Shown here in pieces: positions 35,922-41,364 of a DNA stretch of 64,000 nt. Position 1 is the stretch's first letter. Every line of letters begins with the position of its first letter. The position numbers were made by a program, and so were the translations under genes. The notes under the pieces are model-generated. The model was not told where the DNA came from, did not search any database, and saw nothing but the letters and a program-made list of their open reading frames with translations. Source of the stretch: Bdellovibrio sp. BCCA. GTDB taxonomy: Bacteria; Bdellovibrionota; Bdellovibrionia; Bdellovibrionales; Bdellovibrionaceae. The stretch lies in NCBI RefSeq assembly GCF_037996825.1, contig NZ_JBBNAC010000001.1:2418001-2482000 (forward strand), written 5' to 3'.

Positions 35922-35955
35922 AGCATTATTTATTTTCAGCCAGAGCGGAGCGGTG

Positions 35956-37296
35956 ATGGACAACAACAACCAACCCCTTGAAGAAACACAAGACCAAGAC
36001 TCCGTCATGAACCTTTCTGACACATGGTCAGCTCTGTCTCCCGATGAACGTCGTGAGAAATTCAAAGAATTGCCCCGCACTGAGGCTGAAGAACTCTTTT
36101 TAAGCCTCAAGACTCATGACCAGGCCGAACTCATCGCCGAAGCTTCGCATTTGGAAAAGCGTTCGTGGATTCGTCTTCTCGCTCCCGATGACGTGGCCGA
36201 TTTAATTCAAGAAATGGGACTGGACCAAAAAGAGGACCTGTTGTCTCTTCTTGATCCACAAACAAAGCGTGAGGTTATAGCGCTCTTAGCTTATGCCGAA
36301 GACGCCGCCGGGGGCTTGATGAGCTCCCGCTTCGTACGTTTGCGTCCTGACATGACTGTGGATGAAGCGATCAGTTACATCCGCATTCAAGCCAAAACCC
36401 ACGTTGAAACGATTTACTACGCTTACGTTTTGGATTCCGATCAAAAACTTTTGGGTGTGGTTTCTTTCCGCGAATTATTCTCTGCAGCTCCCGGCAAAAA
36501 GATTTCCGAGATCATGCACACGGATATTTTAAAAGTTCCGCCAGAAATGGACCAGGAACAAATCGGTCGTATCTTCTCACAACAAGATTTGATGGCGGTT
36601 CCCGTTGTCGATGAACATGGTGTGATGAAAGGTATCGTTACGTTCGACGACGTGGCGACAGCGATTCAAGAAGAAGCGACAGAAGATATCCATAAGATCG
36701 GTGCCGTTGAAACCTTGGATGCTCCGTATTTGAAGATCTCGATGTTCGAGATGTTAAAAAAACGCGGTGGCTGGCTGATGATCCTTTTCCTTGGGGAAAT
36801 GTTCACAGCCACAGCGATGGCATTTTTTGAAGATGAACTGTCTAAAGCTGTTGTTCTTTCGATGTTCATTCCTTTGATTATTAGCTCAGGCGGTAACTCG
36901 GGCTCGCAAGCTTCGACTTTGATTATTCGTGCGATTGCTCTTCGTGAAGTGCGCTTGCGTGACTGGTGGCGTGTTTTAGGGCGCGAACTTGTGACGGGAC
37001 TTTGCTTAGGAGCACTGCTCGGTGTGATCGGTTTTACTCGTATTATGCTTTGGCCGAATCGTGAAGCACTTTACACAAGTCACTATATGCTTGTTGCGGC
37101 TACGGTGTGCGTGAGTGTTATTGGAGTTGTTCTTTGGGGTACTATTTCTGGATCGATGTTGCCGTTTGTCCTGAAAAAAATAGGATTCGACCCCGCTTCT
37201 GCTTCTGCTCCTGCTGTTGCTACTCTTGTTGACGTCACGGGGCTTGTTATTTACTTCACTGTTGCTAGTATGATTTTGCACGGGGTTCTTCTTTAG
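35956..37296 (+). CDS. mgtE: MgtE, magnesium transporter
   Basis: 446 residues from the ATG at 35956; a GTG one codon earlier is possible, but spacing to GCGGAG favours the ATG. Domain order is the standard one: an N-terminal MgtE_N helical domain, a CBS pair (about residues 135-255) that senses cytoplasmic Mg2+, a plug helix, and five transmembrane helices. The pore motif region IISSGGNSGSQASTL is intact and the C-terminal PAVATLVDVTG segment is present. It imports Mg2+ across the inner membrane. Confidence 0.95.
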   Translation: MDNNNQPLEETQDQDSVMNLSDTWSALSPDERREKFKELPRTEAEELFLSLKTHDQAELIAEASHLEKRSWIRLLAPDDVADLIQEMGLDQKEDLLSLLDPQTKREVIALLAYAEDAAGGLMSSRFVRLRPDMTVDEAISYIRIQAKTHVETIYYAYVLDSDQKLLGVVSFRELFSAAPGKKISEIMHTDILKVPPEMDQEQIGRIFSQQDLMAVPVVDEHGVMKGIVTFDDVATAIQEEATEDIHKIGAVETLDAPYLKISMFEMLKKRGGWLMILFLGEMFTATAMAFFEDELSKAVVLSMFIPLIISSGGNSGSQASTLIIRAIALREVRLRDWWRVLGRELVTGLCLGALLGVIGFTRIMLWPNREALYTSHYMLVAATVCVSVIGVVLWGTISGSMLPFVLKKIGFDPASASAPAVATLVDVTGLVIYFTVASMILHGVLL

Positions 37297-37313
37297 GACG
37301 GCTTCGAGCGGGG

Positions 37314-37468
37314 TTTGAAGTGGGATGGAGTTTAGGAATGGCTGTCGCTTCGGTCGGCACGCCATCCGGGCTCGGTCGTCGCCACTGCTGCGCAGTGGTT
37401 CGCGCCATCGTGGCGCCGACGAAGGCCTCTCTTCGGACAGCCATTCCTAAACTCCATCCCACTTCAAA
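37314..37468. repeat. perfect 33-bp inverted repeat with structured 89-bp core
   Basis: The left arm (37314-37346) and right arm (37436-37468) are exact reverse complements over 33 bases. The arms read TTTGAAGTGGGATGG… on both strands. Between them lie 89 bases that contain further hairpins (CCACTG-CTGCG-CAGTGG; GTCGTCG … CGCCGACGA) and are GC-rich. It begins 18 bases after the mgtE stop. It could be a non-autonomous mobile (MITE- or REP-like) element, a recombination-made fold-back, or an extreme terminator. Whether copies exist elsewhere cannot be seen here. Nothing else is evident between the repeat and 37732 apart from a weak hairpin plus T6 near 37625-37646. Confidence 0.9.
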
Positions 37469-37732
37469 TTTGCTGAACTCCATAAAGAATAACTGCGTGC
37501 TGCTATTGCACACTTTGAGTTGATTTCCTGTGAGTTCTTTTAGAAGGAACTTCGGAGCAGTTCTCTTTTTGACCTTTTTGTTTTTTCGTTGTCCTTGTTG
37601 AATTTTGTTTGTTCTGTTGGTGAACGCAGTGGGCTTGCGCCTTTTTTAATTTGCGTTGGTTTGAGGGTTGGTTCTATGCTTTTTGGGGTAGGGCTTTATC
37701 TTTTCAAACTTATTTTGTGGAATGGACGTTTT

Positions 37733-38104
37733 ATGAAAGCATTTATTTTTTCTTTTGCTTTGGTTTGTTCTCCCCTTTTTGTTTTTGCTGGGCAGCTTAA
37801 GTGTGAGTATGGGTTTTCTGGGAGTCCTCTTGGGACGGTGACTTTGGCTGTTGATGATAAAGGTGTTCCTGCGGAGACTGCTACTGTTGCTATGTTTTAT
37901 ACTCCGGCTCGGGAGATGCCTGTTTCGAATGAGAATCCGCAGAACGGTGAAATGCTTCGTTTGATTCTTTCTAAGGATGATCCTAATAATGAAATTCACA
38001 TGATGGTTTATCCGCCTCAGGGGAATACTTATAAAAGTAAACTCATCAATCCTGCGGCTCCTCCGGTGATGAAGGAGCTTTCAGGGAGTTGTCAGCTTCT
38101 TTAA
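37733..38104 (+). CDS. small secreted protein of unknown function
   Basis: 123 residues from the ATG at 37733, chosen because it begins a clear signal peptide (MKAFIFSFALVCSPLFVFAG); upstream frame remains open to 37589 but reads as intergenic. The mature protein has two Cys (one at QLKCEYGF, one at GSCQLL near the end), which may form a disulphide. It has no recognised family. Codons are strongly T-ending, unlike most neighbours. It overlaps the convergent channel gene by four bases. Confidence 0.7.
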   Translation: MKAFIFSFALVCSPLFVFAGQLKCEYGFSGSPLGTVTLAVDDKGVPAETATVAMFYTPAREMPVSNENPQNGEMLRLILSKDDPNNEIHMMVYPPQGNTYKSKLINPAAPPVMKELSGSCQLL

Positions 38105-39477: not shown

Positions 39478-41364
39478 CTATGTTTTGATGAGCCCTGCAG
39501 TCCAATCGCGAATCATAGCAAGAGTTCCCTGCTTGGCATTGGCAAACTGGACTCCGTAAGCTTGGTTCTTTTCGCACCAGACGACTTGTCCTGTGACCTC
39601 GATGATTTCATGGCCATCAGGGCTTTGGATTCTCATCGTGACGATGCCGCCTTTTTCCAATGCTTGGTCGGTGTTGAATGAAAGACCGCCCTCGGAAATC
39701 GTGTTCATCGCTCCGACCAATTCGCGGTCGCCGACTTTCACGCGGATTTCAGAACTCATTTTAAAGCGTTCGTAACGACGTTTGTCTTTTGGATCGGCTG
39801 AAGCAGCACTTCTTACACGCAACACTTGCCATACAGCGAGTGGCACTAAAAGAAGTCCAACCACAATACCAATCGGTGAACCACCTGATCCATCGTCAGA
39901 ACCCGGACCGTTTTTCGTGACAGCTTTCACCAAACCGCAACCGCCTCCACCAGCGGCATCACTGGCTGGAGATCTGTCCGCCAAGTAAGACGGCTTGTAA
40001 CTTGGTTGCGCTGAAGCTGTCGACACCATTTGCTTGGCTGATTGAATCAGATAAAGAGCATCAATGCGTGCGCTTGTTGAAACAAGGCCATTTAAGTAAC
40101 CATTTTGCTGAGCTGTTTGCAAAATAAGCTGCTTCATTTGATAGCCAGATAAAGATGGTGCTTCTCGAAAAGCGAGTCCCGCCATACCAGCTACAAATGG
40201 AGTCGCCATACTTGTTCCCGACATCGACATTGTCGCGTTACCAGGAACGGTACTTTCAATATACTCACCAGGGCTTCCAATATTAACGGTGTTTGCACCG
40301 TAATTCGAAAAACTTGAAAGATCATCATAGCGAGATGTTGAAGCCACCGCCAAGTTGCTTGGCACGTCGTAGTTCGATGGATACATTGGATTCACATCAT
40401 TATTATTCGAATAGTTACCCGCTGCGGAAACCACAAGAACGCGGTGATCGTAGGCGTAAATAATCGCATCGTGAAGAGAACGACTGTAACCCGCTCCCCC
40501 CCAAGAGTTGTTGATCACACGAGCGCCGTTATTAACGGCATAATAAATCGCGCGAATCGCATTCGACGTAGAGCCCGAGCCACTCGCACCTAGGAATTTC
40601 AAAGGCATGATCAGCAGTTTGGATTCTTGCAAAGGACGCGCAAAAATATTTTGACCTGTGCCGACGATAATTCCCGAAACGTGTGTTCCGTGATCGTCAT
40701 CGTCAAAAAAATTATTTGTGTTATTGATGAAGTTCCAACCGTTGATATCGTCGACAAAACCGTTCTGGTCGTCATCAACTCCAGGGAGGCCATTTGCTTC
40801 TGCCTGATTGATCCAAAGAGCTCCTGTTCCGCCGTTGGCAACAGGCTTAAAGACATCGTGATATCTATCAAGACCGGTATCAACAACCGCGACAACGACT
40901 TTATCATTGGAAGATGCTAACGGAGAAAGTATCGGCCATGCCGAAGCCACTCCCGTATTTGCATTTGATTGTGAATAAACCGAAGCATTTGTAGAAGCCG
41001 CATTCGCGTTGACCACCTGCTCATATGTCAGACGCTCAACAGGGCCATTGGGCTCCACTTCACTTTTTTCCAAAACGAAGTTCGGTTCAATATATTCAAC
41101 GTCGGGATCGTTTTTAAGAGCCTCAAAATTGACTTTTTCATCTGCGGATTTCATGGAAACCTGCATGATTCCCATACCAGGGAAGGAGGCTTTTAAAGAG
41201 GCTTTGCCTGAGAGTTTTTGTTGCGCAATCGCTGCGCCTCCCGAAGAAGCCTTAAACTTAATCAGGTACTCGCCAGGAACGACTTTAGGTTGTACTTGCG
41301 CCATCGCGAGTCCACCAACCAACGTACTGCATGAAATAAAAAGACTTCTTAGAATCGGTTTCAC
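39478..41364 (-). CDS. subtilase (S8) - transmembrane helix - PilZ-like fusion
   Basis: 628 residues from a GTG start with AAGGAG upstream. Order: signal peptide (1-22), I9-type inhibitor propeptide (about 28-98), and S8 protease with Asp162 (VVDTG), His225 (DHGTHV) and Ser385 (SGTSMATP). Then come a Gly-rich GGGGCG (472-477), one transmembrane helix (about 498-516) followed by Arg-x-Arg, and a PilZ-like domain (about 527-628). The latter has RRYER (529-533) and TISEGG (555-560), where the usual D/N is Thr. The Gly-Cys motif plus helix plus Arg resembles MYXO/GlyGly-CTERM sorting tails, which normally end the protein. The predicted topology puts the protease outside and PilZ inside the inner membrane. 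Confidence 0.88.
   Translation of the reverse strand: MKPILRSLFISCSTLVGGLAMAQVQPKVVPGEYLIKFKASSGGAAIAQQKLSGKASLKASFPGMGIMQVSMKSADEKVNFEALKNDPDVEYIEPNFVLEKSEVEPNGPVERLTYEQVVNANAASTNASVYSQSNANTGVASAWPILSPLASSNDKVVVAVVDTGLDRYHDVFKPVANGGTGALWINQAEANGLPGVDDDQNGFVDDINGWNFINNTNNFFDDDDHGTHVSGIIVGTGQNIFARPLQESKLLIMPLKFLGASGSGSTSNAIRAIYYAVNNGARVINNSWGGAGYSRSLHDAIIYAYDHRVLVVSAAGNYSNNNDVNPMYPSNYDVPSNLAVASTSRYDDLSSFSNYGANTVNIGSPGEYIESTVPGNATMSMSGTSMATPFVAGMAGLAFREAPSLSGYQMKQLILQTAQQNGYLNGLVSTSARIDALYLIQSAKQMVSTASAQPSYKPSYLADRSPASDAAGGGGCGLVKAVTKNGPGSDDGSGGSPIGIVVGLLLVPLAVWQVLRVRSAASADPKDKRRYERFKMSSEIRVKVGDRELVGAMNTISEGGLSFNTDQALEKGGIVTMRIQSPDGHEIIEVTGQVVWCEKNQAYGVQFANAKQGTLAMIRDWTAGLIKT

Follow-up and report, generated by a model that had tools for sequence, protein, structure and literature searches.

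Palindromes that are both long and perfect are usually regarded as unstable. The closest described systems are the REP and REPIN sequences with their RAYTs (PMC2817692, PMC3733652), which, as characterised in these accounts, resemble the element described here in being dispersed intergenic palindromes with strand-asymmetric feet and possibly a life as single-stranded DNA. REP stems are given as 5-13 bp long, with transposase genes linked to the GTAG type (PMC3733652); the Bdellovibrio element is unlike the REPs so described in that its arms are far longer and locus-specific, its tip is conserved and no transposase link was found. Template switching has been proposed to create and repair the perfect stems of RNA genes via multi-base double changes (Monttinen and Loytynoja 2022, PMC8794818), and the Bdellovibrio case differs from the RNA genes presented there in being a dispersed repeat with a conserved tip and with host gene ends in its arms. 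Nematomorph mitochondrial genes (PMC6649704) have long perfect inverted repeats in unexpected places, as here; those repeats sit inside the genes, and a dispersed conserved tip is not known to accompany them. No account of the present hairpin family was found among the matches listed from the open-licence PubMed Central literature. Hundreds of near-perfect palindromes persist in Bdellovibrio, and some of their arms have been rewritten in step between sister species.

In the window, that is the whole 64-kb stretch of Bdellovibrio sp. BCCA DNA that was analysed, the element lies on the plus strand behind an mgtE-type divalent cation transporter gene (35953-37296, plus strand; an ORF with the Pfam domains MgtE, CBS and MgtE_N), the end of the stop codon and the perfect left arm being 17 nt apart. 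The left arm (37314-37346), locus-specific when copies are compared, and the right arm (37436-37468) are exact complements over 33 nt each with a spacer of 89 nt, precisely as the earlier note had described them. When perfect stems down to 14 bp and spacers up to 200 are admitted, this block (37314-37468) is still the sole inverted repeat in the window, and as RNA its 155 nt fold at -104.3 kcal/mol versus -53.2 (sd 4.0) in 200 shuffles (z -12.9). The core between the arms (37347-37435; covariance-model match 37352-37429) contains hairpin A (37361-37371, GCC-NTCCN-GGC) and a stem P2 (37376-37422, formed by 37376-37381 with 37417-37422) which encloses hairpin C (37382-37398) and hairpin B (37402-37416). 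An outer imperfect stem extends the symmetry to about 37278-37500: a left foot with an internal-loop motif of the GCGnnGG type (37300-37313) faces a right foot of the TTTGCT type (37469-37482), and beyond the feet the last mgtE codons (37278-37295), the proposed source of an imperfect inverted copy at 37483-37500, match the complement of the latter at 15 of 18 positions. In the minus-strand DNA fold these two segments close the outer stem of the hairpin. The match lies above the 99th percentile of decoys with a chance of about 0.003-0.004 taken alone, and at p about 0.003 the inverted copy of the window locus is weak evidence on its own. An intrinsic terminator is recognised by a GC hairpin with a T-run immediately behind it, and the right perfect arm is followed by TTT only; the pattern scan for terminators allows loops of 3-8 nt and is thus unfit to judge this hairpin.

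The core recurs. Searching the own genome with the 155 bases located it at five further places, with a different arm pair at each; a covariance model, built from 37 cores and scoring at most 150 candidates per genome, gave seven copies there, the seventh being counted by the model and arms being read for the five others. Among 24 Bdellovibrio genomes the model found at least 313 copies in 22, with a range of 0 to 31 per genome and none in G003 and G004. The conjecture of the earlier note that the core might recur genome-wide with different arms is borne out by these counts, and its refuting case, a single-copy terminator, is excluded by them. Class-wide, 25 of 143 genomes had model matches, three of them outside Bdellovibrio. 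Two of the three (G035 and G082, two other genera of the same family, with seven copies) show the same core build and long complementary arms, partly read; the third (G140, another family) has a shorter core with weak scores (E 3e-4 to 1e-3) and, unlike the Bdellovibrio copies, an arm sequence common to the three copies read. An exact 21-nt core pattern matched three records of a named collection, all Bdellovibrio sp., and a distant-mode search of phage and plasmid collections gave no match to the element. The 147 copies read, on which the following counts rest, are those fetched, mostly the best-scoring, of the at least 313; left out of the counts were weak, split or truncated matches (L040, L048, L052_1351, L098_580, L166), same-place duplicates, and L179, a second, cut mgtE match of G003.

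What recurs at many places is a conserved tip of about 80 nt, in which hairpin A stands beside P2 bearing hairpins B and C. From the outside inwards the layout is an imperfect outer stem, an asymmetric foot, the inner arms, a second internal loop and the tip. The nested core hairpins noticed earlier are real: across the 37 cores 94% of the positions assigned to stems are paired, and 121 doubly changed cells were counted versus 32.5 in shuffles, a value reached by 0 of 500 shuffles. Both partners have changed in five of the six pairs of P2 and in five of the six of hairpin C, and G-U is nearly absent in P2 and C. The loop of hairpin A reads NTCC in 134 of the 147 copies. With strict patterns, the left-foot motif GCGnnGG occurs in 49/147 copies and in 0/147 in the mirrored zone, and the right-foot TTTGC type in 33/147 with none mirrored. 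A RAYT-associated REP would have a GTAG- or CGTC-type head where its hairpin begins; in its GCGACGG form the left-foot motif corresponds to CGTC on the minus strand, but the stem length of the element is unlike that of a REP.

The arms are long, complementary and, save for some related pairs, different between loci within Bdellovibrio. Within 50 nt of the core model at least 25 Watson-Crick arm pairs were found in 144 of 147 copies (median 38), the longest unbroken run having a median of 21 and reaching 33 or more in 14 of the 147. When left and right arms were taken from different copies the median fell to 1 pair (maximum 31; at least 20 pairs in 32/147). In alignments optimised for pairing, 4176 of 4584 arm pairs are Watson-Crick; the plus-strand mismatches are 200 pyrimidine-pyrimidine, 24 purine-purine, 67 G-T and 117 A-C, a spectrum by which the minus strand holds the better tolerated mismatches. 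The minus strand gives the more stable hairpin in 129 of 146 copies when folded as single-stranded DNA and in 98 of 146 when folded as RNA; an artificial control with perfect arms gave a small strand difference of 0.7 kcal/mol. The comparison of folds favours the minus strand, and favours DNA over RNA, in a test weakened by the relatedness of the copies.

How arms change could be followed between G001 and G019, for which 21 and 19 copies, respectively, were fetched and 16 ortholog pairs were defined by both flanks. The arms are identical in three pairs and nearly so in several; elsewhere both arms differ together. In 663 aligned arm pairs 35 Watson-Crick pairs are doubly changed, where about 2 would be expected if the sides changed independently. 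Clustered double changes which preserve pairing, as expected of a hairpin maintained by template switching, are present, 14 of them at L193/L204 and 9 at L152/L148, or 23 of the 35. One-sided changes number 42, of which 18 come from L186/L200, where gaps cause mis-registration. At L073/L092 the left arm is identical and the right arm differs, the complement being perfect only in G001. Both arms are new sequence at L186/L200, L193/L204 and L195/L198, so that recombination with another copy or re-insertion is also needed. At three further pairs (L194/L202, L189/L201, L153/L147) the left and right flank identities lie 5-13 points apart, as if recombination breakpoints fell at the hairpins. The G019 ortholog of L154 has lost hairpin B, and at L150 an apparent disrupted remnant is seen in G001.

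The symmetry often extends into host DNA. With decoys in which the left flank of one copy is set against the right flank of another, 23 of 145 copies show symmetry at 60-220 nt from the core above the 99th decoy percentile (1.4 expected) and 13 of 145 above the 99.9th (0.1 expected). The excess is strong at 60-110 nt and weaker at 110-160 (p 9e-5) and 160-220 nt (p 1e-3); at 220-290 nt it is not significant over decoys. The claims rest on these decoy tests, as the identity figures of the flanks are inflated by liberal gap costs. A test limited to the last 45 nt of an upstream CDS ending at the foot, which avoids terminators, found the CDS end inverted on the far side above the 99th decoy percentile in 6 of 58 copies (L126, L145, L132, L049, L020 and the window copy) and no significant copy in the other 52, with p 3.8e-7; this and the p values of the flanks are too small, since orthologs were counted separately and copies are related, and L126 and L145, having near-identical CDS ends, are probably one locus. 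The mirror test on right-hand CDS ends, which lie further off, gave 1 of 30 copies (p 0.67).

Among these inverted gene ends is that of L132, the one locus with empty-site relatives. In G022 there, the far side bears a perfect inverted copy of 21 nt of the CDS end, stop codon included; G012 has the element, a shorter coding end and an inverted copy with mismatches, and differs from G022 by an insertion on the left side and by single bases on the right. The orthologs in G021 and G011 are without the element, and G017 gave no match. The coding end of G021 is four codons longer; a GC hairpin comes after it, and about 10 nt beyond that a T-run. Judged by eye, the outer arms of G022 are similar to the two sides of the stem of this hairpin, a likeness suggesting that the element inserted into the loop of a hairpin of the G021 type. 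No direct target-site duplication was seen at this locus, where the inverted gene-end copy is found instead.

Copies favour gene 3' ends, with one strand toward the upstream stop codon. Of 143 copies with an ORF on each side under a simple ORF rule, the gene on the left is directed toward the element in 100 and the one on the right in 88; 58 arrangements are convergent and 13 divergent, and 90 elements come directly after a stop codon or a terminator. Left genes at most 400 nt away number 98, with a canonical terminator ahead of the element in 32; of the 66 without one, 58 end 39-77 nt from the core, that is at the foot of the hairpin. At 22 orthologous mgtE loci with the downstream stretch read, nine of which were also searched with the model, the element stands right behind the stop codon in the own genome and in G009, no ordinary terminator being seen, and behind a terminator in G010; the other 19 loci lack it, and 12 of these have an ordinary terminator by eye. 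The contig of G009 ends within the core, and the visible left half is unlike that of the own copy. Just past the mgtE stop of G007 (L160) a short stretch looks by eye like two element feet joined, possibly an excision scar. The core strand is co-directional with replication in 53 of 84 listed copies from 12 genomes (p 0.02, taking the terminus to lie opposite dnaA), a weak bias which gene orientation could cause.

On balance, and with moderate confidence, we read the element as a dispersed, non-coding, intergenic hairpin. Its tip is conserved, and template switching during replication would both keep its arms complementary and lengthen them into host DNA. The template strand (here the minus strand) would fold into the hairpin; the growing strand would fold back at the tip and copy its own arm, sometimes with the gene end past the arm, and would then go back to the template, the far arm being overwritten by the complement of the near one. 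Such fold-back would keep the arms matched without G-T intermediates, locus-specific and lengthened; started from the left arm and carried past the foot, it would also account for the copying of CDS ends in one direction and for the scarcity of G-T. This template switching is inferred from cross-species orthologs (G001/G019), and the common arm sequence of the three G140 copies read speaks against it. A mobilising enzyme for the element was not found. Fold-back synthesis accounts neither for arrival at new places nor for wholly new arms; our guess is that the tip might enter terminator hairpins, or sites behind them, in the form of single-stranded DNA. A more far-reaching version, which we put forward tentatively and think rather doubtful, sees the element as mobile DNA of a new kind: a hairpin cap that is transmissible, has no fixed ends and settles at gene 3' ends or in the loops of terminators, where snap-back synthesis on the target DNA supplies its inverted repeats; insertions would then yield different palindromes, each mirroring the last codons of the neighbouring gene. 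If the template-switching mechanism is right, the loci are natural recorders of such events in which the switch point is marked by the conserved tip, the origin and upkeep of perfect stems become directly testable, and the repeat makes part of its own ends from host sequence. The loci also caution that compensatory changes do not prove RNA function.

In the main rival to replication template switching, the copies would be transcribed from the upstream gene as a family of structured RNAs or long terminators, and ordinary selection for base pairing would preserve their stems. The orientation of upstream genes toward the element, the tight spacing of their stop codons ahead of it, the strong covariation of the core and the mgtE loci, where the two elements behind the stop codon stand without the ordinary terminator that 12 of the 19 element-free loci possess, all agree with it, and individual copies may act as terminators. 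RNA helices maintained by selection would be expected to abound in G-U, however, whereas on the sense strand G-T is rarer than A-C; nor does this rival sit well with doubly changed arm pairs beyond independent change, with symmetry that enters coding sequence, with the 32 upstream genes whose canonical terminator already precedes the element, or with Rfam 15, which gave no match above the gathering score in the window and eight loci. We consider it unlikely.

The origins offered by the earlier note divide in the same evidence: captured flanks and replication fold-back are the best supported, through the flank symmetry, the CDS-end copies and the paired arm changes, and membership of the MITEs or of the REP-like elements does not hold. 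That the Y1 (RAYT-like) transposases of these genomes move the element as REP-like single-stranded DNA might be expected from the presence of Y1_Tnp (PF01797) genes in 21 of 24 genomes, one of them (in G005) about 1.8 kb from a copy, from the strand bias in single-stranded DNA stability and from the asymmetric foot motif. RAYT-associated REPs, though, flank a RAYT gene and have a short stem of common sequence; six Y1 loci of the 79 hits, examined with 1.5 kb flanks, gave no model match at E up to 5, the arms are long and are not shared sequence, G013, G008 and G017 have 15, 11 and 6 copies and no Y1 hit, and in G003 and G004, which lack copies, a single Y1 gene each is present. This makes a Y1-driven element very improbable. 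Still less credit is due to a classical MITE, bounded by fixed terminal inverted repeats that derive from a lost DNA transposon, a reading which we disfavour: the element is short, dispersed, mostly intergenic and variable between some lineages, L059 and L058 have about 179 nt of hairpin in common (87%, arms included) and the G140 copies read share their arms, but terminal inverted repeats conserved among copies are not found within Bdellovibrio, apart from some related pairs, and at L132 an inverted gene-end copy was seen and no direct target duplication.

Some copies occur in particular arrangements. In G013, L058, L060 and L061 share a repeated stretch of about 1 kb, less in L061, that includes the hairpin and an IS1-transposase-like ORF below the curated cut-off, with which these hairpins may have travelled; the idea that they prove copying of the hairpin only was dropped for these three. 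Oppositely oriented copies whose cores lie about 200-650 bp apart were seen as pairs at L049, L050/L054, L051, L053/L055, L056, L057 and L043, and two such pairs are common to G001 and G019. In the window, 37497-38104 comprises a T-rich stretch and then a small ORF (from 37733) without Pfam match; the element, a small ORF and an ion-channel gene separate mgtE from a subtilase gene with a C-terminal PilZ domain (39478-41364, minus strand). The subtilase-PilZ gene lies at most 1.5 kb behind mgtE in 11 of the 22 searched mgtE loci of relatives.
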